A stretch of DNA of 64,000 bases, from NCBI GenBank assembly GCA_023667845.1, contig JAMPIU010000073.1, positions 1 through 64,000 of the forward strand, written 5' to 3'. Both the position numbers and the translations under genes were made by a program. Below the pieces are notes generated by a model. That model was not told the DNA's origin. It searched no databases and saw only the letters and a program-made list of their open reading frames with translations. The DNA is from Dehalobacter sp. Its GTDB lineage: Bacteria; Bacillota; Desulfitobacteriia; Desulfitobacteriales; Syntrophobotulaceae. Numbering within the stretch: position 1 is the first letter of the stretch; every line of letters begins with the position of its first letter. Below, in pieces: positions 22,186-50,427 of the stretch.

Positions 22186-23004
22186 TTATTGCAACAATTT
22201 AAGTACGTTCTGCGGAACCTGGTTGGCCTGAGCCAGCATCGCAACACCGGCCTGGCTGATAATCTGATTTTTTGTGAAATCCGACATTTCAGCAGCCATG
22301 TCGACGTCTTTAATGGTCGATCTGGCAGAAGACAGGTTCTCGGAAGCAACATTCAGGTTGGCAATGGTATGCTCAAGTCTGTTCTGGTTCGCACCAAGCT
22401 TGGCACGTTCGTCCGAAACTGACTTAATCGCAGTATCAATGATTGTAATTGCGGCTGCAGCTCCGGTCTGGGTAGTCAGCGTGATGGCTCCAGTGCCAAC
22501 GCCCAATGAAGTCGCATTCATTTGGCCAAGCGTAACGGCCAGGGTCTGTCCATTGTTGGCGCCGATCTGGAACGTGAAGGAATTGCTGGCAGTGTTCAGC
22601 AGGTTCTGTCCGTTGAACTGGGTTCTATTGGAAATATCCGTTATTTCTGTCTGCAGCTGAGTAATTTCAAGAGCGATTTCAGAACGGTCAGCGGATGTAT
22701 TGGTATCGGTGGCTGCCTGAACAGCAAGGGTTCTCATTCTCTGAAGAATGCTGTGTGTTTCAGTTAAAGCACCTTCTGCGGTTTGAATCAGGGTAATGGC
22801 ACTTTCAGCATTGTCAGTGGCCTGGTTCAAGCCGTTGATCTGGCTGGTCATCTTTTCGCTGATGGCCAGGCCTGCAGCATCGTCAGCTGCTTTGTTGATA
22901 CGGTAGCCGCTGGACAGTTTTTCCAAAGAACTCTGCATGGCCTTGTTGGTCGTATTAAGGCTTCTCTGAGCGCTCAAGCTCGATAAATTGGTGTTTACAA
23001 TCAT
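22186..23004 (-). CDS. fliC: Flagellin, copy 1
   Basis: This is the filament subunit, exported through the FlhA gate with FliS as chaperone. At 272 residues it is a compact flagellin: the D0/D1 N-terminus (NTNLSSLSAQRSLNTTNKAM), a very small central region and the C-terminal D1/D0 (SRINQA-type end replaced by ISQAGVAMLAQANQVPQNVL). There is little or no D2/D3. The start is ATG 23004, six bases after GGAGGG; a longer in-frame ATG at 23019 lies within the ribosome site. The gene is nearly identical to copy 2, differing mainly around residues 151-205. It is probably co-transcribed from the promoter upstream of copy 2. Nearby sugar genes suggest O-glycosylation. Confidence 0.97.
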   Translation of the reverse strand: MIVNTNLSSLSAQRSLNTTNKAMQSSLEKLSSGYRINKAADDAAGLAISEKMTSQINGLNQATDNAESAITLIQTAEGALTETHSILQRMRTLAVQAATDTNTSADRSEIALEITQLQTEITDISNRTQFNGQNLLNTASNSFTFQIGANNGQTLAVTLGQMNATSLGVGTGAITLTTQTGAAAAITIIDTAIKSVSDERAKLGANQNRLEHTIANLNVASENLSSARSTIKDVDMAAEMSDFTKNQIISQAGVAMLAQANQVPQNVLKLLQ

Positions 23005-23010
23005 TGTTCT

Positions 23011-23046
23011 TCCCTCCATGAAATCTGATGTTTCGCATCCATGCGA
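23011..23046 (-). promoter_or_regulatory. CsrA-type translational control leader of fliC1
   Basis: In the mRNA sense, a five-base-pair hairpin TCGCA-TGGA-TGCGA (23033-23046) places GGA in its loop. A second GGA lies in the ribosome site (CATGGAGGG, near 23012-23020), about two helical turns away. This two-site layout, one hairpin loop plus one overlapping the Shine-Dalgarno, is how CsrA represses the hag flagellin mRNA in Bacillus subtilis. csrA and its antagonist fliW are encoded at 36.8-37.5 kb. Confidence 0.65.
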
Positions 23047-23096
23047 TTTTTAATGATATTTGCTGTTATTTGTAGCAATTTTCAGAAAGTAAATTC

Positions 23097-23915
23097 TTAT
23101 TGTAATAATTTAAGCACGTTTTGCGGAACCTGGTTGGCCTGAGCCAGCATCGCAACACCGGCCTGACTGATAATCTGATTCTTGGTGAAATCCGACATTT
23201 CAGCAGCCATGTCGACGTCTTTAATGGTCGATCTGGCGGAAGACAGGTTCTCAGAAGCAACATTCAGGTTGGCAATGGTATGCTCAAGTCTGTTCTGGCT
23301 AGCACCGAGCTTGGCACGTTCATCGGAAACTGACTTAATCGCAGTATCAATGGTTGTAATCGCAGCTGCGGCACCGGTCTGTGAGCTCAGGTCGATAGAT
23401 GTACCACCGACGCCCAGTGAAGTCGCATTCATCTGGCCAAGCGTAACGGCCAATGTCTGTCCGCAGTTGGCGCCGATCTGGAATGTGAAGGAATTGCTGG
23501 CAGTGTTCAGCAGGTTCTGTCCGTTGAACTGGGTTCTATTGGAAATATCCGTTATTTCTGTCTGCAGCTGAGTAATTTCAAGAGCGATTTCAGAACGGTC
23601 AGCGGATGTATTGGTATCGGTGGCTGCCTGAACAGCAAGGGTTCTCATTCTCTGAAGAATGCTGTGTGTTTCAGTTAAAGCACCTTCTGCGGTTTGAATC
23701 AGGGTAATGGCACTTTCAGCATTGTCAGTGGCCTGGTTCAAGCCGTTGATCTGGCTGGTCATCTTTTCGCTGATGGCCAGGCCTGCAGCATCGTCAGCTG
23801 CTTTGTTGATACGGTAGCCGCTGGACAGTTTTTCCAAAGAACTCTGCATGGCCTTGTTGGTCGTATTAAGGCTTCTCTGAGCGCTCAGGCTCGATAAATT
23901 GGTGTTTACAATCAT
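23097..23915 (-). CDS. fliC: Flagellin, copy 2
   Basis: This is the upstream member of the tandem flagellin pair, also 272 residues. Its first 396 bases are essentially identical to copy 1 at the DNA level, and so is much of its C-terminal part, which suggests recent duplication or ongoing gene conversion. Differences cluster at residues 151-205. Residue 151 is Cys (codon 23463-23465, GANCGQT) where copy 1 has Asn; a cysteine in an exported filament protein is unusual. The start is ATG 23915 after GGAGGG. The only good promoter candidate of the pair lies upstream of this copy. Confidence 0.97.
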   Translation of the reverse strand: MIVNTNLSSLSAQRSLNTTNKAMQSSLEKLSSGYRINKAADDAAGLAISEKMTSQINGLNQATDNAESAITLIQTAEGALTETHSILQRMRTLAVQAATDTNTSADRSEIALEITQLQTEITDISNRTQFNGQNLLNTASNSFTFQIGANCGQTLAVTLGQMNATSLGVGGTSIDLSSQTGAAAAITTIDTAIKSVSDERAKLGASQNRLEHTIANLNVASENLSSARSTIKDVDMAAEMSDFTKNQIISQAGVAMLAQANQVPQNVLKLLQ

Positions 23916-23921
23916 TGTTTT

Positions 23922-23957
23922 TCCCTCCATGAAATTTGATATTTCGCATCCTTGCGA
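23922..23957 (-). promoter_or_regulatory. CsrA-type translational control leader of fliC2
   Basis: The mRNA hairpin TCGCA-AGGA-TGCGA (23944-23957) displays AGGA in a four-base loop, and CATGGAGGG covers the ribosome site. The loop sequence is closer to the CsrA consensus (A-N-GGA) than in copy 1 (TGGA). Stem bases are identical between copies while only the loop differs, so both genes should answer to CsrA/FliW, perhaps with different affinity. Confidence 0.68.
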
Positions 23958-24182: not shown

Positions 24183-24881
24183 TTACATACTGATCCCCAA
24201 GAAGTTATCCTCTTCAAGTAATCTGCAATCCTCATTTTCGCCAAAAAATTCCGTTTCAAGCATCGAGCAAACTGCATGATAAATCGGCAAATGATACTCT
24301 TGTATGCGATAAGTTTCAGTAGAAGGCACTTTTATACAATAATCACTAATCAAAGACAATTCCCCACCCTTTTCACCGGTAAAAGCAATTGTTGTTAATT
24401 TTTTAACTTTTGCTGCCATAAAAGCATTGCATATATTTTTAGAAGTTCCCGATGTGGAGAATCCTACCAAAATATCACCTTGTTTTCCGTAGCCGTATAT
24501 TAATTGTGCAAACAAATATTCTGCGTGAACATCATTATTAAAAGCAGTAGCAATTGATGTCTGACTAACTAAAGAAATAGCTGGAAGTGCTTTTTGCAGG
24601 TTCTTCGCAATGTCTTCTCCTTTTTTTGCAAACAATTGCAAAAACACGAATTGCTCCTCCTCTGTTAGCTTTCTCGGTCTTTTAAATCCTTTCATTAATT
24701 CACCCACAGCATGTTCACAGTCGGAAGCACTTCCGCCGTTGCCACAAAAATAAACAGTTCCGTTCCGACGAAAGCAATGTGCCATATTATGAAAAACCTG
24801 AATGATATTACTTCGGATTGATTCCAATTCAGGATAATGTTTGAACAGAATTTCCAACTCATTTCTTACGGCATTTTTCAC
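24183..24881 (-). CDS. gmhA: Phosphoheptose isomerase-like SIS protein
   Basis: GmhA converts sedoheptulose 7-phosphate to D-glycero-D-manno-heptose 7-phosphate, the first step of nucleotide-activated heptose synthesis. The 232-residue product is one SIS domain with the sugar-phosphate motif CGNGGSASDCEHAVGELM near residue 47 and the second loop GFSTSGTSKNICNA. Typical GmhA is about 190-200 residues; the extra length lies in an insertion near residues 70-95 and in the C-terminus. Its neighbours hddA and hddC-gmhB complete the same pathway. It is the last gene of the glycan operon, and no clear terminator follows. Confidence 0.88.
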   Translation of the reverse strand: MKNAVRNELEILFKHYPELESIRSNIIQVFHNMAHCFRRNGTVYFCGNGGSASDCEHAVGELMKGFKRPRKLTEEEQFVFLQLFAKKGEDIAKNLQKALPAISLVSQTSIATAFNNDVHAEYLFAQLIYGYGKQGDILVGFSTSGTSKNICNAFMAAKVKKLTTIAFTGEKGGELSLISDYCIKVPSTETYRIQEYHLPIYHAVCSMLETEFFGENEDCRLLEEDNFLGISM

Positions 24882-24916
24882 GCTTACACCTCAATATTTT
24901 AATACGATTATATAAA

Positions 24917-26167
24917 TTAATAAGGGGCAACTTCAATAATTTGTTCGACAGCAGTAAAAAGTGACTCAGTGACAATATCTGCCCGTAATCGTTCTTTTCC
25001 CACATAAGCAGTTTTACATCCGGCCACCTTTCCTGCTTGGATGTCAGTTAAACCGTCTCCTACAATCCAAGAGGATTCCAAATCTATATGATATTGAGCA
25101 GCAGCTTTTAAGAGTAATCCGGGACTGGGCTTTCTACATTCACATTCAATCTTATACTCTGGACGTTCTCCCTTAAAACCTTTGTGCGGGTGATGGGGAC
25201 AAAAAAACAAATCATCAATATAGGCGCCATGCTCTCCAAGCAAGGCATCCATCATTTCATGAATTTTATCGAGTTCCTCCAGACTGCATTCACCTCGCGC
25301 AATAACTGGCTGATTTGTTACAACAATAGCAAGATAGCCACTTTGATTAATTTTAGCTATGGCTTCGCCTGCGTTAGACGTAAGAATAAATTGTTCAGGG
25401 GAAGAAATAAATCCTATATGTTCGTTAATGGTACCATCTCTATCTAAGAAAATCGCTTTTTGCGGCAGAGTTAGATTCCGTTTTTCAACAATTCCCTGAA
25501 CAAGATCTTTTTCAACTTGAGAAAATCGAGATGGGGTTCCAAGATCCCTCACATACTCTGGTGAACGATAGGTAAATATCAATTGTTTTGAAACCAATGG
25601 GCCAATTATATCCTTATCCAGATCAGCATAACCTCCATTTAATACCTCAAAGATTTCAGGTGATAAGAGGTGTACGCCTGCATTAACCAGGTTACGACCT
25701 TCCCCTCTCACACCCCATGCTACGACCATACCATTTTGATCTACTTTGCAAAGACGACTGTCATGGGGGTGAGAATTAGGATGAACCAAGAGAGTAGCCA
25801 CGCCATGGAATTGTTCCCGCATTCTTTTAAAGTCTATGTCAAAAATCAGGTCACCGTTAATGAGCAAAAAAGGTTCAGTGAGTTTGTCCTTCAAGTAGTA
25901 TAAGCCACCGGCAGTTCCAAGCGGCTCTTTTTCGATTATATATGAAATATTAACTCCCCATGCACTTCCATCTTGGAAATATGATTGAATTGATTCTCCT
26001 AAATAACCGATCACAAGAACAATTTCCAAGATATTATTTGCTTTAAGCCTTTCAATCTGATGCAAGAGCACAGGCTTTCCACATATTGGTGTCATGGGCT
26101 TTGGTAACTCACCAGAAACGGATTTGAGCCTAGTTCCCATTCCTCCAGCCATAATCACAGCAATCAA
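24917..26167 (-). CDS. Fused heptose-1-phosphate guanylyltransferase and heptose bisphosphate phosphatase
   Basis: This is a two-domain fusion. Residues about 1-225 are a nucleotidyltransferase (AVIMAGGMGTRLKS, GEWP-type LPKPMTPICGKPVL) like HddC, which makes GDP-heptose. Residues about 235-410 are a HAD-IIIA phosphatase like GmhB, with DRDGTINE, VTNQ, the zinc loop CPHHPH...CEC and KPSPGLLLKAA...GDGLTD. One polypeptide would perform both remaining steps after HddA. The TTG start at 26167 gives the canonical N-terminus IAVIMAGG after GAGGTGA; a GTG at 26176 is the alternative. The start overlaps or abuts the upstream stop, so translation is probably coupled. Confidence 0.88.
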   Translation of the reverse strand: MIAVIMAGGMGTRLKSVSGELPKPMTPICGKPVLLHQIERLKANNILEIVLVIGYLGESIQSYFQDGSAWGVNISYIIEKEPLGTAGGLYYLKDKLTEPFLLINGDLIFDIDFKRMREQFHGVATLLVHPNSHPHDSRLCKVDQNGMVVAWGVRGEGRNLVNAGVHLLSPEIFEVLNGGYADLDKDIIGPLVSKQLIFTYRSPEYVRDLGTPSRFSQVEKDLVQGIVEKRNLTLPQKAIFLDRDGTINEHIGFISSPEQFILTSNAGEAIAKINQSGYLAIVVTNQPVIARGECSLEELDKIHEMMDALLGEHGAYIDDLFFCPHHPHKGFKGERPEYKIECECRKPSPGLLLKAAAQYHIDLESSWIVGDGLTDIQAGKVAGCKTAYVGKERLRADIVTESLFTAVEQIIEVAPY

Positions 26168-26172
26168 ATTTA

Positions 26173-27183
26173 TCACCTCGTCAAGAATACTTCGCCCGAT
26201 GCTATACGACCACGCCAGTAATCCAGAAGGTCTTTCATAGTAGTTGAAAAAGGAATTTCCGGTTTCCATCCGGTATGTTCGGTAAATTTCGAGACGTCCG
26301 GGACCTGAAGATCCGCATCAATTGGACGAAGTCTGGACTCATCCATACGAACAGTAAGTTCATTTTTTAGTGTGGACATAGAAATTAGTGTATCCAGCAT
26401 CTCGCTAACTGTACAGGTAAAATTACCGCCAATATTGTAATATTCACCTTTTTGGGGATTAACTGTAACAAGTAAAAAGTAAGCTCTGACAGCATCACGT
26501 ACATCAGCCCAAGTTCTCAGAGAGTCAAGGTTACCAGTTCGAATAACAGGTGGTATCAATTTCGCCTCTGCCATAGCTATTTGTTTGGCAAAGGTCGATT
26601 CTACAAATACATCACCACGACGAGGTCCAGTATGTGTAAACATACGTGTTGTCATTACAGTGAGTCCGTAACTTTCAGCATAGTATCGTCCGAGAAGATC
26701 AGTCCCAACCTTGGAAATTGCATAAGGTGATGCCGGATGAAAAGTACACTCCTCATCAATGGGCAGTTTTTCTTTCGGAACCCTGCCAAAAACCTCGGAC
26801 GATGCACATATATGAATAACCGGATGCAATTGAAGTATTCGAACTGTTTCTAATAAACGGCATGTTCCCAGAATGTTTGTATTTAGGGTATCCAGTGGCG
26901 AGTCAAAGCTTGTTTTTGGGTAGCTCTGCGCTGCAAGGTGAAAAATGTAATCCGGCTGGACATCCCGTAAAATATGAATCAGTGACCCTTCATCGTTCAA
27001 ATCACCATAATGCAAAAATATTCTGTTTTTTTGCTCAATAATAGGCAAAAGATGAGAAATGTTATCAAGCGGACTGCGCCATCGAATTATACCATGTATT
27101 TCCCAATTGGTATGTGCAAGCAGATAATCAGCAAGATGGGACCCTACCATTCCGGTTAACCCAGTAATAAATACTTTGGTCAA
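26173..27183 (-). CDS. GDP-sugar 4,6-dehydratase (GMD/WcbK-like)
   Basis: This is an extended short-chain dehydrogenase that would form a GDP-4-keto-6-deoxy sugar. The Rossmann motif GLTGMVGSH, the catalytic SSE (ASSEVFG) and YxxxK (YAISK) are all intact in 336 residues. The body resembles GDP-mannose 4,6-dehydratase (FHLAAQSY, THTGPRRGD) but is shorter than classical Gmd (about 370), as are enzymes acting on GDP-manno-heptose. Heptose activation genes on both sides make GDP-D-glycero-D-manno-heptose the likely substrate; GDP-mannose cannot be excluded. Confidence 0.85.
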   Translation of the reverse strand: MTKVFITGLTGMVGSHLADYLLAHTNWEIHGIIRWRSPLDNISHLLPIIEQKNRIFLHYGDLNDEGSLIHILRDVQPDYIFHLAAQSYPKTSFDSPLDTLNTNILGTCRLLETVRILQLHPVIHICASSEVFGRVPKEKLPIDEECTFHPASPYAISKVGTDLLGRYYAESYGLTVMTTRMFTHTGPRRGDVFVESTFAKQIAMAEAKLIPPVIRTGNLDSLRTWADVRDAVRAYFLLVTVNPQKGEYYNIGGNFTCTVSEMLDTLISMSTLKNELTVRMDESRLRPIDADLQVPDVSKFTEHTGWKPEIPFSTTMKDLLDYWRGRIASGEVFLTR

Positions 27184-27185
27184 GA

Positions 27186-28178
27186 TTAAACACCCTCTCG
27201 ATAATAAATAGTTTGCGTCCCTAAATTCTCGAATGAAAATGGGATGTGAATGTATTCGGATAGACTTTTTAATAAGGCTTCCCGATTATGCGGCTGAACA
27301 AACAGCAACATAAATCCGCCCCCACCAGCACCTAATAGTTTTCCGCCGATTGCACCATTCTTACGTCCGATATCATAGATATCATCAATTTTAGAATTGG
27401 ATACTTTATCAGATAAATTTCTCTTTTTCATCCACGTCTCATGGAGTAGAGCACCGAATTCAGCAATATCCGTATTACTGTTTAGTATATTTACAGCATC
27501 ATTAACATAGCCCTGGATGTAAGTAAGGTCCTCCTGGTGACTGTTCATATTATTAATTTTTTCTCTTTCAATAGCATCCGCAGATCTTTGGAATCCTGTA
27601 AAAAGAAGCACAAGGTGATCATTTAATTCTTCGATCCTTTGTGGCCTCAGGGTCATAGGGTTGACTTCAAAAGTACCATCCCGACGAAACACTATTTGAT
27701 TGAATCCTCCATATGCTGCAGTTATCTGATCCTGACAGCCTACGGCCTCATGAATTAAATCCTGTTCAATATGAATAGAGTCTGAGGCTAACTTCTGATC
27801 TGAGGCCAATTTACCCATCTGGCCATAGAGTGCATTAAGAAAACCAACTGTAAAGGAAGAACTTGATCCAATCCCTGAACGGGCAGGAATGTCCGTATTA
27901 TAATGCATATCAATGCCGCCATCTATGTTAAGGAACTTAAGCGTCTCACGTATGGAAGGATGTTCTATTAAATTGATGTTATCAACCGTTTCTGTTTTTG
28001 AACCGTAAACAAACCGGTTTCGAAAATCCCAAAAAGGAGGCATCTCGCGCAATTGAATATATAGGTATTTATCAATCGTCGTCGAAAGCACATTACCTCC
28101 ATGCTCTGTATACCACTTTGGAATATCCGTTCCTCCTCCGAAGAAGGATATACGGAAAGGTGTTCGTGTAATAATCAT
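27186..28178 (-). CDS. hddA: D-glycero-D-manno-heptose 7-phosphate kinase (HddA-like)
   Basis: This GHMP-family kinase phosphorylates C1 of heptose 7-phosphate. The 330-residue product starts with the family motif ITRTPFRISFFGGGTD. It has the glycine/serine phosphate loop in SGIGSSSSFTVGFLNA and the C-terminal motif KLLGAGGGGFMLLF. It lies 2 bp before the dehydratase gene. With GmhA and HddC-GmhB it gives a complete set for GDP-heptose, the route known from S-layer glycans of Gram-positive bacteria. Confidence 0.9.
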   Translation of the reverse strand: MIITRTPFRISFFGGGTDIPKWYTEHGGNVLSTTIDKYLYIQLREMPPFWDFRNRFVYGSKTETVDNINLIEHPSIRETLKFLNIDGGIDMHYNTDIPARSGIGSSSSFTVGFLNALYGQMGKLASDQKLASDSIHIEQDLIHEAVGCQDQITAAYGGFNQIVFRRDGTFEVNPMTLRPQRIEELNDHLVLLFTGFQRSADAIEREKINNMNSHQEDLTYIQGYVNDAVNILNSNTDIAEFGALLHETWMKKRNLSDKVSNSKIDDIYDIGRKNGAIGGKLLGAGGGGFMLLFVQPHNREALLKSLSEYIHIPFSFENLGTQTIYYREGV

Positions 28179-28226
28179 AATAAACTCCTACACTACAATT
28201 TATTCTGCGTTATATCAAAACACAAA

Positions 28227-29393
28227 TTATACTTTATTCAATAACTTACATAACTGAATTATTTTTTCTTGTTCTAAGTCTGGGTAATTTCCAATGTATA
28301 AGCCAAAAAAATGAATATGATCAGTATTTTTGTACTTTTCAGGATATAATTCCGAGAAAGCGGAACGCACGTATGGCTGGCGAGTAATATTCCCACCGCC
28401 AGCAGTTCCGCGGCGAAACTCAACATTCTTTTCCCTAAGCATAGCAGTAATTTTATTAAAGGTATTTTTATTCTTTTCTTGCAAAATCAAAACAAATGCA
28501 TAATTACAGCTGCCTAAAGTATCAAATTGAGTAGCGAACTTTTCCCGGTCCAAATATGACAAAAACAATTCAAAGTTTGCTCTTCGCTTTTCATTATTTG
28601 CATCAAGCCGCTTCAATTGATTTCTGCCAATTACTGCATTAAGTTCTGTGCTACGCATATTAAATGCAGGTAAGGCAAAGATGAACTCTTCATTGAGATC
28701 TGGGTATTTATCAAGTATGCTTCGTTGATATTTTTCATCCCGACATTCCCGAAGTAATCCGTGGCTACGCGACATTCGAAAGGTTCTATACAATTCATCA
28801 CTATTTGTACAAATCATTCCCCCTTCAATCGTACTCATATGATGCGCATAATAAAATGAAAAATTTGATACTAATCCCCATGAACCAAGTTTTTTTGACT
28901 GAAACACTGCACCATGAGATTCACAAACATCTTCAATAAGCATAATATCTCGCTTTTGAAGCTCTTCTAGCAGATTTTCACTTAATCCGTTAAAGCCAAG
29001 GACATACGTCAAAAAAACAGCTTTTGTTTCAGGCGTTATAGCTTCAATAATCATTTCCTCGTCCATAGCTAAATTCTTCAAACAGCAATCAACAAAGATT
29101 GGTTTATGTCCAAAGTGAATAACACTTGCAATATCACTGGTCCATGTAAGAGTAGGAACAATCACTTCACAGGAACCGTAAAGGAAATAAAGAGCAGCCA
29201 TTGTCATAAAGTTAGCTGAGGCACCGGAATTAACAAACACACTATGTTTTACCCCAAGCCATTTACTCCATTCATGTTCGAAGCTTTCCACCTGTTTTCC
29301 CTGTGTAAAACTATCGCTTGTCTGTAAAAAATTTATTAGACAATCGATATCTTCCTTAAGAATGTTATTTTTCATTAATGGGATATTTAACAT
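28227..29393 (-). CDS. ColD-type GDP-4-keto-6-deoxy-sugar 3-dehydratase
   Basis: This is an aminotransferase-fold PLP enzyme of 388 residues in which the Schiff-base lysine is replaced by histidine. The site reads SFYYAHHMSTIEGGM, with H185 (codon 28839-28841) in the lysine position. PLP-binding D155 (IEDVCESHGA) is retained. This histidine swap marks ColD and RfbH, which remove the C3 hydroxyl of 4-keto-6-deoxy sugars rather than transaminating stably. ColD does this in GDP-colitose synthesis, and the pattern here is close to ColD. A plain aminotransferase is unlikely. Neighbours suggest a GDP-4-keto-6-deoxyheptose substrate. Confidence 0.85.
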   Translation of the reverse strand: MLNIPLMKNNILKEDIDCLINFLQTSDSFTQGKQVESFEHEWSKWLGVKHSVFVNSGASANFMTMAALYFLYGSCEVIVPTLTWTSDIASVIHFGHKPIFVDCCLKNLAMDEEMIIEAITPETKAVFLTYVLGFNGLSENLLEELQKRDIMLIEDVCESHGAVFQSKKLGSWGLVSNFSFYYAHHMSTIEGGMICTNSDELYRTFRMSRSHGLLRECRDEKYQRSILDKYPDLNEEFIFALPAFNMRSTELNAVIGRNQLKRLDANNEKRRANFELFLSYLDREKFATQFDTLGSCNYAFVLILQEKNKNTFNKITAMLREKNVEFRRGTAGGGNITRQPYVRSAFSELYPEKYKNTDHIHFFGLYIGNYPDLEQEKIIQLCKLLNKV

Positions 29394-29412
29394 TTTTATC
29401 CTTCCCGCTCTC

Positions 29413-30342
29413 TTATTTAGCTTTATATTTTAAAAACCAGCTGAATGTTTCCTCTAGCCCTCTTTTGAGTGACATTTCTGCTTTCCAGCCCAGCCCCTTA
29501 GCCTTTGAGCTGTCAAGTATCCTCCTAGGCATGCCGTCAGGTTTTGAAGTGTCAAAAATGAGTTTCCCTTTAAAACCTGTTAAATCTTTAATTATTAGAG
29601 CTAATTCATGAATAGATATATCTTCACCCGTCCCGATATTTATGACAGGTAATTCACTGTGTCTCATCATGAAAACTAGTGCTTTTGCAACATCGTCAAT
29701 ATAGATGAATTCTCTTCGTACATTACCGCTTCCCCATATTGTAATAGCTTCAGTATTCGTTTTTACTGCCTCATAAAACCTTTGAAACAATGCAGAAATG
29801 ACATGCCCATTCTCAGGGTCAAAATGATCTCTCGGGCCATAGGTATTTGCTGGGATACAACTAATAAAACATTCTCCATACTGCTGTTGGAAATAAACAC
29901 ATTGGCGTACTCCCAGAAGTTTCGCGAGTGCGAACCCTTCATTTGTAGGTTCTGGTATACCTGTAAGTAATGCTTTCTCCGTAATCGGTTGTGGGCATTC
30001 ACGAGGGTAAATACAAGAAGACCCTAAATATAGAAATTTCTTTACTTTATATTTGTGTGCTGACGAAATCGTATTCATAGTTATATAGGCATTTTCCATT
30101 GCAAAATCCGCCATATAGCGTTGATTAGCCTGAATACCGCCCACGTGTCCGGCACACATAAAAACATAGTCGGGACGCATCAGTTTAAAAAAATCATCCG
30201 TTGCCTGCTGACTGAGCAAATCTAAATCCTGATGGTTAATTAAAATTAGATTCTCATATCCCAATACCTTTAGGTGTTGCGTAACCGCATGCCCTATCAA
30301 TCCCGTATGCCCAGCGATATAAATTCTTGATTCTTTTTTCAC
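29413..30342 (-). CDS. GDP-fucose-synthase-like epimerase lacking the catalytic tyrosine
   Basis: This is a member of the GDP-L-fucose/GDP-colitose synthase family (C3/C5 epimerisation followed by C4 reduction). The Rossmann motif GHTGLIGHA, S108/S109-C110 (LGSSCIYP), K141 and H180 (GHVISAL) are in place; Cys and His are the epimerisation residues. The catalytic Tyr of the YxxxK motif is Phe137 (EGFALAK, codon TTC at 29932-29934). If this reading is right, the protein could epimerise but probably not reduce the C4 ketone. That would suit the next proposed step, which needs the ketone. The 309-residue length is normal. Confidence 0.82.
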   Translation of the reverse strand: MKKESRIYIAGHTGLIGHAVTQHLKVLGYENLILINHQDLDLLSQQATDDFFKLMRPDYVFMCAGHVGGIQANQRYMADFAMENAYITMNTISSAHKYKVKKFLYLGSSCIYPRECPQPITEKALLTGIPEPTNEGFALAKLLGVRQCVYFQQQYGECFISCIPANTYGPRDHFDPENGHVISALFQRFYEAVKTNTEAITIWGSGNVRREFIYIDDVAKALVFMMRHSELPVINIGTGEDISIHELALIIKDLTGFKGKLIFDTSKPDGMPRRILDSSKAKGLGWKAEMSLKRGLEETFSWFLKYKAK

Positions 30343-30352
30343 CTTAAGCCTC

Positions 30353-31291
30353 CTAAAATACTCCCCGACTTTGGATTGGATTAATAACCCATTTATCTTT
30401 TTTTGTATTTAAAAGTGCTGCAAGATATCCATAAACACTTGAACAAAGAACCATGCCATCGCACATTGCCATCAACTGCATATCACAATGATTATTTTTG
30501 CTGGTGCGTTTTTCTTCGCAATAGACTAGGCGATCCTGAGGAAGTAAAAAACCATACTCTTTTGCATTCATTTTGCAATGTTCAATATCATCAGAGAAAA
30601 TAAAGAATCGCAAATCCCTTTTTTTGTTAAACTTTTTCATTATTTTGCTGATAGCATCTTTAAAGTACGAAGGTTGTAGTGATCTATTAAGCAGTGCATA
30701 GCCTCCTCTACGAACGTGAATCGCAATAGCGTAAGAATCCTCAATTTTTTTAGACATCTCTAGGTCCGATTCTGATTCCAAAGGAGGCAAGGCCAATTCT
30801 TTACGAAACATATCCTCATACTGCATAAACCATCCGCCATTTGTAAAATATCCCCAGTAATATACATTTCCCTGTGATTGAAGCATTTCCGGTATGTGGT
30901 GATAGTATGGCATTCTTGCAATCATCCCGTCAAAAATATAAGTTGGGCATTCTGCAATCATAAAAAACTCCAATCCGCTGTCTTTTAAAATCTGGGGCAT
31001 ATGGCTACCGCCAAGGAGCGGTGGCTTTTTTCGTGCAATGCTTACAATTTCTTCCCAGACATCCGGTGTAAAATAGGATGAAAGGAGCGTTGGTTTTGTA
31101 CCTGTGTACTTATGCAATTGATAGCTATGATGTTCTTGGCTTTCAACACTTTCCGCCAAATCTCCATGTTCAAGGTAAAACCACAAATCATCCAAATAAA
31201 CCTTATCGCCAGTTGCTTCCTCTAGACATCTGGCAAAAATGTACTGTGTAGTTTGATTTGCAAGGGCTCCATCTAACAATACAATTTTCAA
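30353..31291 (-). CDS. Alpha-1,2-fucosyltransferase-family glycosyltransferase (GT11)
   Basis: This is a GT11-type glycosyltransferase of 312 residues that probably transfers the GDP-sugar made by the neighbouring enzymes. The N-terminus reads GALANQTTQYIFAR, an altered form of the family motif GGLGNQMFQYA. The donor-binding motif HxRRG is intact (IAIHVRRGGY). The C-terminal part has the FSDD and SSVYGYLAALLN-type motifs of the family. GT11 enzymes use GDP-fucose or GDP-colitose, which fits a GDP-dideoxy-sugar donor. No membrane segment is visible, so it probably acts in the cytoplasm. Confidence 0.82.
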   Translation of the reverse strand: MKIVLLDGALANQTTQYIFARCLEEATGDKVYLDDLWFYLEHGDLAESVESQEHHSYQLHKYTGTKPTLLSSYFTPDVWEEIVSIARKKPPLLGGSHMPQILKDSGLEFFMIAECPTYIFDGMIARMPYYHHIPEMLQSQGNVYYWGYFTNGGWFMQYEDMFRKELALPPLESESDLEMSKKIEDSYAIAIHVRRGGYALLNRSLQPSYFKDAISKIMKKFNKKRDLRFFIFSDDIEHCKMNAKEYGFLLPQDRLVYCEEKRTSKNNHCDMQLMAMCDGMVLCSSVYGYLAALLNTKKDKWVINPIQSRGVF

Positions 31292-31332
31292 AGATAATCC
31301 CCCTAATCAATTTCTATAAACTAAAATGTCCA

Positions 31333-32373
31333 CTAAAAAGGTCCTTTAAACTTATTCTCATATGAGTAGAAATCTTCTTCGGAAAGATCTATCGGATCCA
31401 ACCCTAATATTTTTTCCGCAGCTCGAATTATTTGTTCCGCTCCGCTATAAAAAAGGTTTTCCAGCGGTCTTGTACATGGACAGGGAACAGGCGCAAAACC
31501 TATCCTGGCAATGGGCGATTTCAAGCTTGAAAAACATTGATCATAGACTCTTGATGAAATTTCTGATGAAAAACCACAATGTAACCAGTCATTATCCGCA
31601 ATAATACAGCGCTTTGTTTTTTTAACAGAAGATATAATTGGCTTCTCATTGAATGGAGAAACTGACCTCACATCAATTACTTGGGTACTTACGCCATATT
31701 TTTTTAAGATGTCTGCAGCCTGGATCGCTTCCACATTCATCCATGAAGTAGCTGCAATCGTTAAATCTTCTCCTTCACGCAATATCTGAGGTGTTTCCAA
31801 GTCAAGATCTTCAGTATAGCCAGTAACATCCCCTTCAACGTCATACAGAAACCGGTGTTCTAAAAGAACAACTGGATCATCCTGACGAATAGCAAAAATC
31901 AACATATTTTTTGCATCTGACGGCGTAGAAGGCATATAAACTTTAAGCCCAGGAATATGAGCAAATATAGACTGTAAAGATTTGCTGTGCTGAGCCGATT
32001 GTCCCCAGCCACGGCCAATTATAGCCCGTATAACTATGGGAGCTGTCATTTTCCCATTAGTACTGTATCGAATTGTTGAGATCATGTTTGCTAATTGGTT
32101 CATGGCTAAAAGCAAAAAATCTACGCGAATATGAACATGGATCGGTCTGAGCCCATTCATTGCCGCTCCTAAGCCAAATCCAGTCATTGCCTCCTCAGAT
32201 ATAGGCGTAGCAAAACACCGATCTGTTCCAAATTCCTCCAGTAGGTGAGCTGTACTGCCAAAAATCCGTTTATGATCCGCTACATCTAATCCATATATAA
32301 ATATACGATCATCCCTGCGCATCTCTTCAATTAGGGCTTGGTTAATAGCCTCACGATATGACATCTTACTCAC
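31333..32373 (-). CDS. Thiamine-diphosphate E1 beta-like subunit
   Basis: This resembles the beta subunit of pyruvate/acetoin dehydrogenase E1 (transketolase C-terminal type). In 346 residues it has the pyrimidine-binding domain with FATPISEEAMTGFGLGAAMNGLRP and the C-terminal transketolase fold (VIDVRSVSPFNEKPI). It pairs with the alpha subunit encoded 2 bp upstream. No E2 or E3 gene is nearby, so a full 2-oxoacid dehydrogenase complex is unlikely from this locus. In avilamycin synthesis, AviB1/AviB2 of this type add a two-carbon branch to a sugar, and I infer a similar role. The start may be GTG 32373 or the ATG nine bases later. Confidence 0.85.
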   Translation of the reverse strand: MSKMSYREAINQALIEEMRRDDRIFIYGLDVADHKRIFGSTAHLLEEFGTDRCFATPISEEAMTGFGLGAAMNGLRPIHVHIRVDFLLLAMNQLANMISTIRYSTNGKMTAPIVIRAIIGRGWGQSAQHSKSLQSIFAHIPGLKVYMPSTPSDAKNMLIFAIRQDDPVVLLEHRFLYDVEGDVTGYTEDLDLETPQILREGEDLTIAATSWMNVEAIQAADILKKYGVSTQVIDVRSVSPFNEKPIISSVKKTKRCIIADNDWLHCGFSSEISSRVYDQCFSSLKSPIARIGFAPVPCPCTRPLENLFYSGAEQIIRAAEKILGLDPIDLSEEDFYSYENKFKGPF

Positions 32374-32375
32374 TG

Positions 32376-33317
32376 CTATTCATATACCCCCTTATAGAGT
32401 TCTTCAGAGGAAGCGAACGGTGCTTCTTTTGCTTTTCTCACACTGAGATCAATTTGGCAATTCACATCTTCTTCGATCTCCTCGGCAATAGAAATATCCA
32501 ATTTGCTTCTAAAAGTTAAAACAGGATCCTTCCTATTCCAGATTTCAAATTCATCACGAGAACGATAACCTGCATTAAAATCAAAATTAATACCAACATG
32601 TTCATAATAACGATAGTATTTTGAACAAAGAACTGCAGGTTTTTGTTTTTCGGATATAGCTCTCATCGCTGCACTTGCTACGTGATATATTTCTTCAGCG
32701 TCAGTTGAATCTCCAGTATCATACAGGAGACAATTGTATTGCATTATAATGTTCTGAAAGGAATCATAACCCTTCCGGGTACTAAAATCAGCATGAATCG
32801 CCAGCCCATTATCTTCATACACAAAAAGGACAGGCAAATGCATGAGGCAAGCAACATTCAAGCTTTCCCAAAATACGCCTTCTTCTACTGCCCCATCTCC
32901 CATAAAGCATGCAGTAATAATTGGCTTATTCAAGCGCTTATTTGCATATGCGGCACCAACGGCGAGGGAAATTGTCGATGCTACAATTGCGCTTGAATAC
33001 AAAAGTCCTGACTGTGGATTAGACAAATGCATAGAACCAGCTTTGCCATTGGCAATATAACCCGATTTTCCATAAAGTTCTAAGAAGAATAGATCTGTCT
33101 CTTCGGCCATAGCGATATAGAGAGCGTGACTTCTAAAAGTCCCAAAGGCTTGTCCTGATGGTTTTAAAGCTTCTACTACACCACTAATAATTGCTTCTTC
33201 CCCAATAGACAAATGTACAGGCGTCTTCATATCATCTTCATTATAAAGAGCAATAATTTTTTGTTCTGCCGCTCGAATCCTATAAAGGTGTCTGTATAAA
33301 TTTTTTTTTAAATTCAT
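32376..33317 (-). CDS. Thiamine-diphosphate E1 alpha-like subunit
   Basis: This resembles the alpha subunit of pyruvate/acetoin dehydrogenase E1, which carries the thiamine-diphosphate site. The cofactor motif GDG (140-142) and a closing Asn near residue 170 (YEDN) are present, with HLSIGEEA and GKAGSMHLS family segments. At 313 residues it is at the short end for the family. A run of nine A lies at codons 3-6 (33301-33309), a possible slippage site just after the start. Context is purely sugar biosynthesis, with GT11 and dideoxysugar enzymes downstream and glycosyltransferases upstream. Confidence 0.85.
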   Translation of the reverse strand: MNLKKNLYRHLYRIRAAEQKIIALYNEDDMKTPVHLSIGEEAIISGVVEALKPSGQAFGTFRSHALYIAMAEETDLFFLELYGKSGYIANGKAGSMHLSNPQSGLLYSSAIVASTISLAVGAAYANKRLNKPIITACFMGDGAVEEGVFWESLNVACLMHLPVLFVYEDNGLAIHADFSTRKGYDSFQNIIMQYNCLLYDTGDSTDAEEIYHVASAAMRAISEKQKPAVLCSKYYRYYEHVGINFDFNAGYRSRDEFEIWNRKDPVLTFRSKLDISIAEEIEEDVNCQIDLSVRKAKEAPFASSEELYKGVYE

Positions 33318-33351: not shown

Positions 33352-35436
33352 CTAACTTTGTTCCGAAATCCTAATATTTAATTTAAAATTGGCAATTTCC
33401 GGATCATTTGAAATAATTTCCTCATAGCCCTGAATAATTTCCCTGGCTTCTTTGAACATCCCGTTTTGAATAAACTGTTTCAGATTTGATTTCACAATCC
33501 GTGCATATTCCTGCATTTCAGCGCTGACAGCAGGCGGCGTCTGATCGTCCATCTTTTGCGTCAGCCTGTTCAGGAGTATTTCTATTCCTTTTTTCATATC
33601 AGGATACTCAAGGAGTGCTTTTTTCAAACACCTGACGTATTGGGCCTGATCGAAATTCTCAACGGAACGGGCTTTATCAAGATAGTAGAAAAATATTTCT
33701 TCCTTATTGGCCAGGAGATAAGGTTTGTCATTTTCAAATAGTTCCGGGCGGTAGATTTGCCTGATATAGACGATCCCCTCTTTGATATACCTATCCAGCA
33801 CCTGATCATACTTTGCTTCATCAAGGTGTTCCGCTTCAAGAATGATCCTTCGTAATATTTTGTGGATTCTTTTTTCTTCAATCGCTGCTTCTTCATCCTG
33901 ACTCAGCAGGTAGGCATAACAATCCTGAACAAAATCCAGATATTTTTCAGTCAGATATTTGAAGAACAATTCGAGCTCCTGCTCCTGAATTTTAAGGTTA
34001 ACACTGCCTAAGGGGAGCTTCCTTTTTATAAGGAAATAGAACACATCTCCATAATAAAACCCGAGCTCATTAAGCGGAAGGTTCTTGATCCCATCCAGCA
34101 GCTGGCTGCTTACATTTTCCGGCTCCCAGAGCCTGATTTTGTTTAACAAGCCATACTCCGAATCTTCACTCTGGAAAAATCCGGCTGCTTCTTTCCTTTT
34201 ATCGTCATTCTCACTCAGCAATAAAGACTCTAACGCCAGGCAAAAACTTTTTTCCAGGTCTTTCTTGGCAAATGCTTTTATTTTATTGTAAAAACCTTTA
34301 ATCCCTTTATATTTTTCGAGGCTTAAATAAAGCGCGATTTGATGAGGAACAGCTTTTTCGACCAATTCGATGGATTCGATCTTCTCCAGTACTTCCAGCG
34401 CATCTGCTTTCTGATACATTTCCTTGTACATAACACCCAAGTCATAGTACACTTCTTCTGTTTTGGAGATCGAATTCGCCAAAATTCTTGGGTCTTTTCC
34501 GAGATACTGTTCATAGTTCTCAGCGTAATATAAAAACTTCTGGTAACTTGCAATGGCTTCCTGGTATTTCTTCAACATCCCCTGGGCTTTAGCGAGACAA
34601 AACCATAAGTCAATGGCCCATTCCCTGTATTCGAGGCCTTCCTGAGCTATTTCTACAGTCTTCTTGTACTCACCATTATCGTTGTATAAAATAGCCAGGG
34701 TACCATACACATAGAAATACTCTACTGGATCCGAGTTCTTTCTTTTGGCAGTTTCGTAAGCTCTGATTGCGGGCTCCAGGGCGTCCTTATGATTTTTAAA
34801 TGTGGCAATCGTATTGGAAAGATAAAATAATAAGCCAATATTCTCAGGGTCCTTCTCGATGGCTTGCTGTAGGATGGGCTCGTAAAGCTTAAACTTCCGC
34901 TTCTTAAGTTCCGGATCATCGGCAGGATAGCCATAATGAAGCAGTACGGTATCAATGACTGCCAGGGGCGGGTTGAAGATAGGCTCTTCGTGAATAACGC
35001 CACGAAAGCCAAATTTGGCGGTCTTGCGAAATAGCCGTGTTACGACGCCGGTGCCAATTTTGCTTGGTTCATTAAAATGATAAATATTGTTAATTTTGAT
35101 CGCTGCTGCGTTGATATTTTTAGATGCCTTTGTTGTTAAAAATTGAACAATCGGCTTATGATCCACCAGCTCTTCATCGGCATCTACAAACATGAACCAG
35201 TCCCCCCGGGTGTACTGCACCGTTATATTCCTCATTTTCGAATAGTCATCTTCCCAAGGATGAAAGTATATTTTATCCGTGTATTTTCTGGCGATTTCCA
35301 CTGTCTGATCCATTGAGCCCGTATCCACAATGATGAGTTCCGAAGATACTGCGTTTAAAAGTGGCTTAAGGCTTTCTAAACATCTTTCCAGATTTTTTTC
35401 CTCATTTTTTACCATCATACCGATGCTTAATTTCAA
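33352..35436 (-). CDS. GT2 glycosyltransferase with long TPR-like helical tail
   Basis: This is a 694-residue fusion. Residues 1 to about 230 are a GT-A family 2 transferase (SIGMMVKNEEKNLERCL, DTGSMDQT, D85-A-D87). The remainder is helical with TPR-like pairs (KYQEAIASYQKFLYYAENY, YDLGVMYKEMYQKADALEVL). Such GT2-TPR proteins are common in Firmicute flagellar glycosylation islands, where the repeats may hold the protein acceptor. It has no membrane helix. It is the first gene of the run leading through E1 alpha/beta to gmhA. Acceptor and sugar cannot be told from sequence. Confidence 0.8.
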   Translation of the reverse strand: MKLSIGMMVKNEEKNLERCLESLKPLLNAVSSELIIVDTGSMDQTVEIARKYTDKIYFHPWEDDYSKMRNITVQYTRGDWFMFVDADEELVDHKPIVQFLTTKASKNINAAAIKINNIYHFNEPSKIGTGVVTRLFRKTAKFGFRGVIHEEPIFNPPLAVIDTVLLHYGYPADDPELKKRKFKLYEPILQQAIEKDPENIGLLFYLSNTIATFKNHKDALEPAIRAYETAKRKNSDPVEYFYVYGTLAILYNDNGEYKKTVEIAQEGLEYREWAIDLWFCLAKAQGMLKKYQEAIASYQKFLYYAENYEQYLGKDPRILANSISKTEEVYYDLGVMYKEMYQKADALEVLEKIESIELVEKAVPHQIALYLSLEKYKGIKGFYNKIKAFAKKDLEKSFCLALESLLLSENDDKRKEAAGFFQSEDSEYGLLNKIRLWEPENVSSQLLDGIKNLPLNELGFYYGDVFYFLIKRKLPLGSVNLKIQEQELELFFKYLTEKYLDFVQDCYAYLLSQDEEAAIEEKRIHKILRRIILEAEHLDEAKYDQVLDRYIKEGIVYIRQIYRPELFENDKPYLLANKEEIFFYYLDKARSVENFDQAQYVRCLKKALLEYPDMKKGIEILLNRLTQKMDDQTPPAVSAEMQEYARIVKSNLKQFIQNGMFKEAREIIQGYEEIISNDPEIANFKLNIRISEQS

Positions 35437-35625: not shown

Positions 35626-36708
35626 TTAAATCCCTGGCTTCAGATCCGCAATACGGGTTAAAGCAGGTTTATATCCTTCTGATGTAGCTCTGGTATAATA
35701 TTCTTTCGCCTTGACCATGTCACCGGTTGTTTCATAGTACACGCCCAGATTATAGGCTGCCAGGAAACTTCCCGTTCCGGTCATTGTACTGTACTTATCT
35801 GTCTCTCCCAGTTGAAGACAGGTTTTATACTCCCGTTCAATCTCCGGAAACAAGTGAATATATTTGTTCACATCTGAAAAAACAAGCTCCATATAGAAAA
35901 GAGCGCATACAAAATGAAAATCCGGATAATCGGCAAACTGCGCTCTTTCTTTTTCGATCATGCCGAGTCCTTTAAGTAGTTTCCCGGTGGCAAGAATATT
36001 GTAAAGATAGTCAATCACAACAAGATCTCTATAGCCTGCGTTTAGACCCAGAAATTGATAGCATTTTTTGAAATAGCTGTTTGCCGTCTGATATTGGCCG
36101 GATAATTTGTATTGTTTGGCTGTCTGGTAAAGAAGATAAGGGTCACAAGGATGATCGTCCAATTCGAGAAGCAATAAACGTAAATTTCGGCCCGTTTTGT
36201 CCGTTTCGTAGTAGCCGTCATGATTCACTTCGATTTCCGTATTGACCCGTGGAAGGTTTGATTTAATTTGCTCATGAACTCTGCCTTCAAAATAAATTCC
36301 TTTCGGGATCAACCTGGAAACCCAAGTGCTGGAAGTTCTTATTTCATGATCCTGCCTAATCTTACTGACCACTTTGATTCTGCCGATGGCCTCAGGCTGC
36401 TCGATAAAGTGCCGAATACTCTCTTTCGTTCCCTGTGTAAGTACTTCATCAGCATCGAGGATTAGATTCCAATCCCCTGCCGCGTAACTCAGCGCAAAAT
36501 TCCGGGCCTTGGCAAAGTCATCCTCCCAAACATAATCGCATACTTTAGCACCATAAGCGTGAGCAATTTTTTTCGTATCATCCGTGGAACCCGTATCCGC
36601 AACAATCATTTCATCAACAAGATGTTTAACACTGTCCAAACATCTGGCTAAGACCTTCTCTTCATTTTTAACAATCATGACCAACGATAGCTTTCTCATC
36701 TTGCTCAC
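35626..36708 (-). CDS. GT2 glycosyltransferase with TPR-like tail
   Basis: This 360-residue protein has an N-terminal family 2 glycosyltransferase domain (LVMIVKNEEKVLARCLDSV, ADTGSTDDTKKIA, DAD at LILDADEVL). A helical C-terminal half has a TPR-like last repeat (AAYNLGVYYETTGDMVKAKEYYTRA). It is a shorter relative of the gene at 33352. It lies between the csrA terminator and the glycan operon, and probably modifies flagellin or another surface protein. The start may be GTG 36708 or ATG 36699; both follow GGAGTTAA. Confidence 0.8.
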   Translation of the reverse strand: MSKMRKLSLVMIVKNEEKVLARCLDSVKHLVDEMIVADTGSTDDTKKIAHAYGAKVCDYVWEDDFAKARNFALSYAAGDWNLILDADEVLTQGTKESIRHFIEQPEAIGRIKVVSKIRQDHEIRTSSTWVSRLIPKGIYFEGRVHEQIKSNLPRVNTEIEVNHDGYYETDKTGRNLRLLLLELDDHPCDPYLLYQTAKQYKLSGQYQTANSYFKKCYQFLGLNAGYRDLVVIDYLYNILATGKLLKGLGMIEKERAQFADYPDFHFVCALFYMELVFSDVNKYIHLFPEIEREYKTCLQLGETDKYSTMTGTGSFLAAYNLGVYYETTGDMVKAKEYYTRATSEGYKPALTRIADLKPGI

Positions 36709-46031: not shown

Positions 46032-47039
46032 TCATCCCAGCGGGTTTATGCTGTCAGGTTTATCCCACCAGGCTCGGTTGTCCCGATACCATTGAATCGT
46101 ATCCCGAATTCCCTCGTTAAGATGATACCGGCATTGCCAACCCAGCTTCGTTTTCAGCTTCGTGCTGTCCAGCGCGTATCTCCAGTCGTGTCCGGGCCTG
46201 TCGGCTACCTGAACCAGCGCATCCGCCGGTTTACCCAGCATGTTCAGTATGGTCCGGGCCATCTCTAGGTTCGATGTTTCCTCCCCGCTCCCAATATTAT
46301 ATACCTCTCCTGGTTCCCCGTCCGAAAGTATCTCCGCAAGCGCCGCACAATGGTCCAGTACGTGGATCCATTCACGTTTATGGGACCCATCCCCATAGAC
46401 AGTCAGCGGCATATCCTGTAAAACCTGAATGATACTATGCGGAATAAATTTTTCTTTATCCTGATTGGGTCCGTAGTTATTGCAGCACCGGGTCACGATC
46501 ACCGGAAAGCCGTAAGTTCTGGCAAAAGCCCTGGCCATTAAATCAGCAGCTGCTTTGGAAGCCGAATATGGGCTGTTTGGACGAATCATGGAATGCTCCG
46601 AAAACTGTTCTGCCTCATTATCAAGACTTCCGTATACTTCATCGGTGGAAACCTGAATAAAGCGTTTTCCCGTAAAGCCGTTCTTCTCCCAATGTTCCTT
46701 GAAACAATGAAGCAGCGTTAAAGTCCCCATCAAATTGCTTCGGCCGAAAACCAGAGGATCGGTAATACTTCTGTCCACATGCGATTCGGCAGCAAAATTA
46801 ATCACATCATCGGGGTCACATTCCTGAATAATGCGTTTGACCTCTTTCGCAGTACTGATATCCCCCTGCGTAAAATAATACCTTGGATGAGCTGCCAGGT
46901 CTTGAAGATTTTCCACCTTTCCTGCGTAAGTCAGTTTATCAAAATTAATGACGATAACATCCTGGTTGCGCTGCAAAATATATTTAATAAAATTGCTTCC
47001 GATAAAGCCTGCGCCACCGGTAACCATAAGAACTCTCAT
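46032..47039 (-). CDS. rfbB: dTDP-glucose 4,6-dehydratase
   Basis: RmlB/RfbB converts dTDP-glucose to dTDP-4-keto-6-deoxyglucose. The 335-residue product has the NAD motif GGAGFIGSN, active-site SSTDE-type sequence VSTDEVYGSL, YSASK (Tyr and Lys intact), and the substrate region RCCNNYGPNQ. It is encoded 46 bp after rfbA on the same strand. No rmlC or rmlD lies nearby. The keto sugar is therefore more likely passed to the VioA-like aminotransferase at 49.2 kb than made into rhamnose. Confidence 0.95.
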   Translation of the reverse strand: MRVLMVTGGAGFIGSNFIKYILQRNQDVIVINFDKLTYAGKVENLQDLAAHPRYYFTQGDISTAKEVKRIIQECDPDDVINFAAESHVDRSITDPLVFGRSNLMGTLTLLHCFKEHWEKNGFTGKRFIQVSTDEVYGSLDNEAEQFSEHSMIRPNSPYSASKAAADLMARAFARTYGFPVIVTRCCNNYGPNQDKEKFIPHSIIQVLQDMPLTVYGDGSHKREWIHVLDHCAALAEILSDGEPGEVYNIGSGEETSNLEMARTILNMLGKPADALVQVADRPGHDWRYALDSTKLKTKLGWQCRYHLNEGIRDTIQWYRDNRAWWDKPDSINPLG

Positions 47040-47085
47040 ATTCTACACCTCAAATTATATTTTTTCGGCCAGCTCAACTGGCAAA

Positions 47086-48111
47086 CTAGAGATCGATCTG
47101 ACAGTGGTCCCCAAGAAAAAAAGTACTGACTAAAGAGCTGTTTTCGGGGCTGCCTTGAATGGAAACCTGGTTTCCGATTAAGCTTCCGCTGATTTTCTTG
47201 GAGACATTGGCAAGTTGCGTATCCTCTAGGATAATACAATTTTCGATCTCACATTCTGTAATCCGGGTTCTCCTGCCCACTGTCGTATACGGTCCGATAA
47301 AGCTGTCCGTAATGACAGCATCATCGTCCAGATGAACTGGCCCCTGAATAATACTGTTCCGAATGGTCACATTGTTTCCCATTTGAACTTTTTCGGCCAG
47401 CGCTGCATCAAACATCAAGCGATTTGCTTCAAGAATGTCGTTTAATTTTCCTGTATCCTTCCACCATCCCCGGACCAGATCGCAAGTGACCCTGGCCCCG
47501 TTTTTCAATTGATTTTGGATTGCATCGGTAATCTCAAGTTCTCCCCGGCGGGACGGTTTGATTCTGTCAATCGCTGCAAAAATGCTGTGGTCAAAGGCAT
47601 AGACCCCTGTGATGATCAAGTTACTGATATACTTCTCAGGCTTTTCGTAAAGCGCTGTTACAAATCCGTCTTTCACCACCGCAACCCCGAATTGGGAAGG
47701 ATTGCTGACCGTATGAAGCAATACGCTGGTGTTGGCCTTTTGCTGGTAGAAATTTTGAATGAAGCTATCCAGCTCCATATTGAAGATGTTGTCTCCAAGG
47801 ATCATCACAAAATCATCGCGGCCAAGAAAGTCGGCCGCAGTCCGAACAGCATGGGCGAGCCCCAGGGATTTATGCTGATGAATATAGGTGATTGCCGTGC
47901 CCCACGCTTCTCCGCTGCCGACCGTTTTTTTTACTTGTTCCTGCGTATCCCCAACGATAATCCCAATATCATGGATACCTGCCCTGGCTATCTTTTCAAT
48001 AAGATAGATCAGTACTGGTTTGTTGACCAAGGGAAGAAGCTGTTTCGCCTTGGAATAGGTCAGCGGTCTGAGCCTTGTTCCTGTTCCTCCGCTTAAAATC
48101 AGAGCTTTCAA
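47086..48111 (-). CDS. rfbA: Glucose-1-phosphate thymidylyltransferase, long form
   Basis: This enzyme makes dTDP-glucose from glucose 1-phosphate and dTTP. The N-terminal domain has the nucleotidyl motif LSGGTGTRLRPLTYSKAKQL and LGDNIF. At 341 residues it is the long type with a C-terminal left-handed helix (repeats such as VTIRNSIIQGPVHLDDDAVI), like the StrD-class enzymes, rather than the 290-residue RmlA. The start is 190 bp from the divergent glycosyltransferase gene. Confidence 0.92.
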   Translation of the reverse strand: MKALILSGGTGTRLRPLTYSKAKQLLPLVNKPVLIYLIEKIARAGIHDIGIIVGDTQEQVKKTVGSGEAWGTAITYIHQHKSLGLAHAVRTAADFLGRDDFVMILGDNIFNMELDSFIQNFYQQKANTSVLLHTVSNPSQFGVAVVKDGFVTALYEKPEKYISNLIITGVYAFDHSIFAAIDRIKPSRRGELEITDAIQNQLKNGARVTCDLVRGWWKDTGKLNDILEANRLMFDAALAEKVQMGNNVTIRNSIIQGPVHLDDDAVITDSFIGPYTTVGRRTRITECEIENCIILEDTQLANVSKKISGSLIGNQVSIQGSPENSSLVSTFFLGDHCQIDL

Positions 48112-49213: not shown

Positions 49214-49235
49214 ATATTTGCCAGGGGAGAAAAAA

Positions 49236-50375: not shown

Positions 50376-50427
50376 AAAACAAATAGACTGAGACAAAAAA
50401 TCAATAAATGAATTGAGCGTGTGATCA

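Follow-up and report, generated by a model that had tools for sequence, protein, structure and literature searches.

The synthesis of GDP-3,6-dideoxy-heptoses has been characterized in Campylobacter jejuni (PMC10440746, PMC10680097). In C. jejuni HS:5/HS:11, these sugars are made by 4,6-dehydration, pyridoxal phosphate (PLP)-dependent C3-dehydration, C5-epimerisation and C4-reduction (PMC10440746). YerE, the thiamine enzyme of yersiniose A synthesis, acts on CDP-3,6-dideoxy-4-keto-glucose and adds a two-carbon unit from pyruvate to the C4 ketone of this nucleotide sugar (PMC12247030). Some thiamine enzymes that branch sugars are two-subunit E1 proteins that work without an E2 acyltransferase. 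Examples include AviB1/AviB2, Pau11/Pau12 and KbDH, which form a two-carbon branch on keto sugars of actinobacterial antibiotics; the sugars are TDP-hexoses in paulomycin (PMC4425429, PMC12247030). With KbDH alpha/beta, pyruvate is joined to analogues of the pyranone (PMC12247030), loss of pau11 abolishes paulomycins, and two-subunit branching is also backed by aldgamycin feeding and knock-outs (PMC12247030, PMC4425429). According to a review, two-subunit ketone-branching thiamine enzymes belong mainly to antimicrobial natural products, with YerE-like enzymes found in cell-surface sugars (PMC12247030).

We compared these systems with a locus in a 64,000-nucleotide stretch of Dehalobacter DNA (the window). 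Nine ORFs follow one another at 24183-33317, with 2-48 bp between neighbours or an overlap of 4 nt, between the second of two tandem flagellin genes (22186-23019 and 23097-23930) and a gene for a GT2 glycosyltransferase with TPR repeats (33352-35436; PF00535 and TPR matches). All of these genes are on the reverse strand. In order of transcription, the ORFs encode an E1-alpha subunit (32376-33317), an E1-beta subunit (31333-32373), a GT11 family glycosyltransferase (30353-31291; PF01531, 50 bits against a cut-off of 23.9), a GDP-fucose synthase (Fcl) homologue (29413-30342), a ColD-type PLP 3-dehydratase (28227-29393), an HddA-type GHMP kinase that would act on heptose-7-phosphate (27186-28178), a heptose-type 4,6-dehydratase (26173-27183), an HddC-GmhB fusion of a sugar-1-phosphate nucleotidyltransferase and a heptose-1,7-bisphosphate phosphatase (24917-26176; NTP_transferase and GmhB-type HAD domains) and a GmhA-like sedoheptulose-7-phosphate isomerase with a SIS domain (24183-24881). 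The fusion most likely starts at the GTG at 26176 rather than at the upstream ATG at 26269, because the GTG overlaps the stop codon of the dehydratase gene. Scans for promoters and terminators did not settle the ends of the operon; predicted promoters showed no excess (43, against 41.7 in shuffled sequences). Gene identities and active-site residues were assigned from sequence, and family scans returned the same nine genes that an initial annotation of this DNA had named.

The colitose route (ColD, ColC) starts from a hexose and includes a C4 reduction. It is GDP-linked and joins a ColD-type 3-dehydratase to an Fcl-type enzyme, as the operon does. Unlike the colitose route, the operon has a heptose start and a Phe in place of the reductive Tyr of Fcl. 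The operon also resembles C. jejuni HS:5/HS:11, where GmhA, HddA, HddC, a heptose 4,6-dehydratase and a PLP C3-dehydratase are found in one GDP-linked cluster. In contrast to the operon, C. jejuni uses separate enzymes for C5-epimerisation and C4-reduction and lacks an E1 pair, and its cluster serves the capsule instead of occupying a flagellin site. YerE is a single-chain, decarboxylase-type enzyme working on a CDP-hexose, whereas the operon has a two-subunit E1 and a GDP-heptose start. The E1 pair is likened to AviB1/AviB2, Pau11/Pau12 and KbDH by their published descriptions. Flagellin glycosylation islands of Geobacillus also tie sugar genes to flagellin genes in a Gram-positive bacterium; the sugar pathway, as outlined there, differs (PMC5109656).

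Homologues of GmhA, HddA and HddC, the proteins of heptose activation, and of GmhB are all present, with scores below the curated equivalog cut-offs. The best solved relatives of GmhA are phosphoheptose isomerases (2xbl, 125 bits). HddA is the top NCBIfam model for the kinase, and the solved HddA homologues 4n3o and 3k85 are among its best matches. For the HddC domain, mannose-1-phosphate guanylyltransferases score slightly above solved HddC-type proteins, and the sequence does not fix the nucleotide. The dehydratase appears to be a heptose-specific enzyme of the C. jejuni type, as 7us5 is its best solved relative (359 bits, E 1.8e-106) and other dehydratases and reductases reach 163-188 bits (188 for the next match and 163 for E. 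coli GMD, 1db3). Sequence thus supports the GDP-heptose start and the heptose-type dehydratase that had been proposed earlier. The heptose dehydratase is not universal to ColD/E1 modules: when ten genomes with a ColD of the window type were searched for it, eight gave matches of only 32-36% identity, one gave a 43% match and one gave none. Hence the acceptor may differ between organisms, since most of the genomes with a window-type ColD and E1 have ordinary GMD-like dehydratases only.

For the PLP protein, the best alignments are with ColD (2gms, E 3.9e-52; 3gr9). It has His184 at the position of the ColD catalytic His, which is the site of the PLP-binding Lys in aminotransferases. This is the His-for-Lys replacement of the C. 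jejuni C3-dehydratase, and an aminotransferase reading was rejected on this ground. The C3-dehydratase assignment of the initial annotation is thereby supported. The Fcl homologue (E. coli Fcl 1bsv, E 3.2e-88) retains Ser108, Cys110, Lys141 and His180 and has Phe137 (codon TTC) at the reductive Tyr. An Fcl-type short-chain dehydrogenase without this Tyr could retain C5-epimerase activity but would be expected to be a poor reductase, so that a ketone would remain for the E1 pair. The loss of the Tyr is real. It is also private to this genome, as 15 of 15 close Fcl relatives from other E1 loci keep the Tyr. It is therefore ruled out as a family trait and lends weak support to the earlier interpretation, and a retained C4 ketone would be no general feature of these loci. 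The Fcl homologue is the sole candidate C4-reductase in the operon, and a separate C5-epimerase with a His/Tyr dyad is absent among the operon ORFs.

The E1 pair has the features of a two-subunit sugar-branching enzyme. Both subunits are present, E1-alpha retains the GDG...N thiamine motif and E1-beta retains the catalytic Glu60. An E2 acyltransferase (PF00198) was not found in the genome sequence, which is 99.95% complete; it is present in 10 of 14 control genomes. Having no E2 partner, the pair does not belong to a dehydrogenase complex, and the thiamine pair of the initial annotation can now be described as stand-alone. Other E1-beta-like matches in the genome are weak (23-25% identity). 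Two further features of E1-beta, a WGQ motif and an FxGPF tail, occur together in 76 of 81 E1-beta matches of the collected loci and are missing from the PDH-type E1-betas examined.

An alignment scan with E1-beta, using one genome per species, returned 584 relatives, and the best 80 loci of these were kept. Among these best 80, the neighbourhoods contain HddA in 36 cases, a heptose-type dehydratase in 20 and a ColD homologue in 39; at 40 loci, a member of the DegT family carries the ColD-type His. A maximum-likelihood tree places the window in a clade of 23 rows (100/100) within a group of 63 rows (100/97). HddA or the heptose dehydratase is found at 44 of 58 loci inside the larger group and at 0 of 22 outside it (Fisher p = 1.4e-10, indicative only, as the rows are mutually related and similarity was scored against the window's own proteins). 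Restricting the comparison to loci of 12 kb or more gives 41 of 49 and 0 of 15. A ColD homologue is found at 37 of the 58 loci. The initial annotation had suggested a database search for the same gene set, and the whole set (both E1 subunits, HddA, the dehydratase and homologues of the ColD-type enzyme and of Fcl) was found at two loci from other phyla, one of Omnitrophota (L077) and one of Alphaproteobacteria (L078). A module of HddA, Fcl, E1-alpha, E1-beta and ColD recurs at six further loci (L076, L081, L111, L112, L113 and L118). In a genome of the same class (G461), E1 subunits 61% and 52% identical to those of the window adjoin GmhA, HddC and GmhB. HddA and a heptose-type dehydratase lie further along, the latter partial at the edge of the examined stretch.

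Several other observations were made at these loci. In G461, a second split thiamine pair, which is transketolase-like, lies directly downstream of the heptose-linked E1 pair (L035:11231-13047). A protein with a B12-binding domain recurs next to or near E1/ColD or E1/heptose genes (L111:12720-14258, L112:12235-12918, L035:7857-9788). At L111 and L035 it also has a radical SAM domain, and it possibly performs a further sugar-modifying step. The nearest relatives of the window's E1-beta are from candidate-phylum bacteria (Microgenomates, Levybacteria), and the clade includes a Nanoarchaeota metagenome-assembled genome (MAG) (L044, L045, L048, L049, L050, L056, L059 and L063), which suggests horizontal transfer of the cassette. 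A scan of viral contigs with E1-beta found no relative. Plasmid matches came from Azospirillum, at loci that combine E1 with genes of the ColD type, and from Streptomyces, in a cluster of the polyketide/peptide type; the Streptomyces E1 lies outside the heptose group.

The operon lies in what has the features of a flagellin glycosylation island, with conserved flanks and content that varies between relatives. In genomes of the same genus, the flagellins are 96-97% (G003) and 91% (G005) identical to those of the window. The GT2-TPR protein is 89% identical in G003 and 80% in G005, and a second GT2 glycosyltransferase (35626-36708, reverse strand; SunS-like NCBIfam matches) is 95% identical in G005. 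Between these flanks, different sugar genes occupy 18 kb in G003 and 7 kb in G005. The G005 island encodes a glucose-1-phosphate cytidylyltransferase and a CDP-glucose 4,6-dehydratase, both above NCBIfam cut-offs. The operon genes have a GC content of 35-42%, against 45% for the window. The flagellin-adjacent setting that was noted at the outset is thus seen to be a conserved one with exchangeable content. The best solved relative of a thiamine enzyme in G003 is JanthE (8rph, 339 bits, against 233 for acetolactate synthase), which is YerE-like and joins donors to ketones. A close relative thus appears to have, at the corresponding flagellin site, a thiamine enzyme of a sugar-branching type from another superfamily, which speaks for branching as well as for a flagellin role. 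The G003 cassette (L143:10229-18103; G003:C1:1557500-1577400) has, besides the YerE-like enzyme, a CDP-glucose 4,6-dehydratase, a split transketolase-like pair and three FkbM methyltransferases. In the window, the proteins of the tandem flagellin genes (22186-23930) are 96% identical to each other. A second sugar cluster at 46032-52292, with names taken from the translations, has dTDP-glucose 4,6-dehydratase-like and RmlA-like genes, a DegT aminotransferase in which the Lys is retained, an acyltransferase-like gene and two glycosyltransferase-like genes that resemble each other.

We propose, at about even probability, that the operon makes a GDP-3,6-dideoxy-heptose with a two-carbon branch at the 4-keto carbon, destined for a flagellin glycan. 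The operon would be an exchangeable sugar cassette of the flagellin-glycosylation island, and its putative reactions would run in the following order. The heptose-type dehydratase would form GDP-6-deoxy-4-keto-heptose, the presumed substrate from which the ColD-type enzyme would remove O3. The Fcl homologue would invert C5 and leave the C4 ketone. The E1 pair, acting without an E2, would decarboxylate a donor, presumably pyruvate, on thiamine diphosphate and add the two-carbon unit to the C4 ketone. The predicted product is GDP-3,6-dideoxy-4-C-acetyl-heptose. It would probably be L-configured, as GDP-L-fucose is, if Fcl inverts C5. GDP-L-fucose is the usual donor of GT11 enzymes, and the GT11 would transfer the branched sugar to a flagellin glycan begun by the neighbouring GT2 enzymes. 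This branched-heptose reading draws on the match of the dehydratase and the ColD-type His to the C. jejuni route (PMC10440746), on YerE, which takes the same order of a 3,6-dideoxy-4-keto sugar followed by branching, on the two-subunit E1 enzymes that branch keto sugars with pyruvate in antibiotics (PMC12247030, PMC4425429), on the absence of an E2 from the genome, and on the E1-beta group with its tie to HddA and the heptose dehydratase and the whole set in L077 and L078. A reductase for the branch ketone is not evident, and this counts against it, as do the Tyr kept by the 15 close Fcl relatives, the ordinary GMD-like dehydratases of most genomes with a window-type ColD and E1, and an HddC domain whose sequence does not fix the nucleotide.

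Four other explanations were weighed. The E1 pair may form its carbon-carbon bond on a sugar derived from GDP-heptose but give a different product, using a carbon other than C4, a 2-oxo acid other than pyruvate or a 4-keto-heptose that is not dideoxygenated. Among the two-subunit enzymes already described, branching takes place at C3 or C4, although only with two-carbon units (PMC12247030). In the window's own group of 21 E1 loci, HddA or the dehydratase (17 loci) is commoner than ColD (7), and some modules have no heptose dehydratase. The ColD-type enzyme here would remove O3, which makes C4 the evident ketone, and we regard this variant as unlikely. The same branching may instead follow transfer, with the GT11 moving a 4-keto-heptose first and E1 alpha/beta branching the attached sugar, the order proposed for methyleurekanate in avilamycin and paulomycose in paulomycin (PMC4425429). 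YerE works on a nucleotide sugar, nucleotide-sugar genes repeatedly accompany the E1 genes and GT11 is outside the gene set common to the E1 loci, all of which makes this order distinctly unlikely. C. jejuni performs every step to the 3,6-dideoxy-4-keto sugar without an E1 (PMC10440746), and the operon could yield a plain unbranched GDP-3,6-dideoxy-heptose or a colitose-like sugar, with the E1 pair in an unrelated role. This we judge improbable, given that the E1 genes are inside the operon and tied to heptose genes across phyla, that the operon appears to have no intact C4 reductase and that the genome has no E2. The Pfam and NCBIfam names, taken from PDH E1, would assign the pair to a pyruvate or acetoin dehydrogenase complex, as an E1 component placed here by chance, a candidate that was rejected as highly improbable because the genome has no E2 and because E1-beta lies outside the PDH/AcoB group, with a C-terminal tail foreign to the PDH-type proteins examined.

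The branched-heptose reading, which is partly supported here, had first been put forward as having no described counterpart. The open-access literature searched yielded no branched-heptose pathway, no branched sugar on flagellin and no account of this combination of genes. The dideoxy-heptose part is not new, as GDP-3,6-dideoxy-heptose synthesis is known from C. jejuni (PMC10440746), and hence the novelty lies in the E1 pair, a two-subunit type already known to branch keto sugars in antibiotics (PMC12247030, PMC4425429). The heptose start, the C3-dehydratase, the lone E1, the island and the recurrence of the set all favour the reading. A wider proposal, which we advance tentatively and hold at slightly below even probability, is that a distinct two-subunit thiamine clade, spread over many phyla and a nanoarchaeal MAG, is dedicated to two-carbon branching of GDP-heptose-derived keto sugars, giving nine-carbon products for surface glycans, and that the flagellin islands of one genus swap this cassette for a YerE-type one at the same site. 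If so, E1-type sugar branching would not be mainly an antibiotic trait, contrary to the review (PMC12247030). It would be a common route from GDP-heptose to surface and flagellar sugars. It would also suggest that many annotations of "aminotransferase" and "pyruvate dehydrogenase" at such loci are wrong. The proposal would define a testable enzyme clade and predict a new class of branched nine-carbon flagellar sugar.
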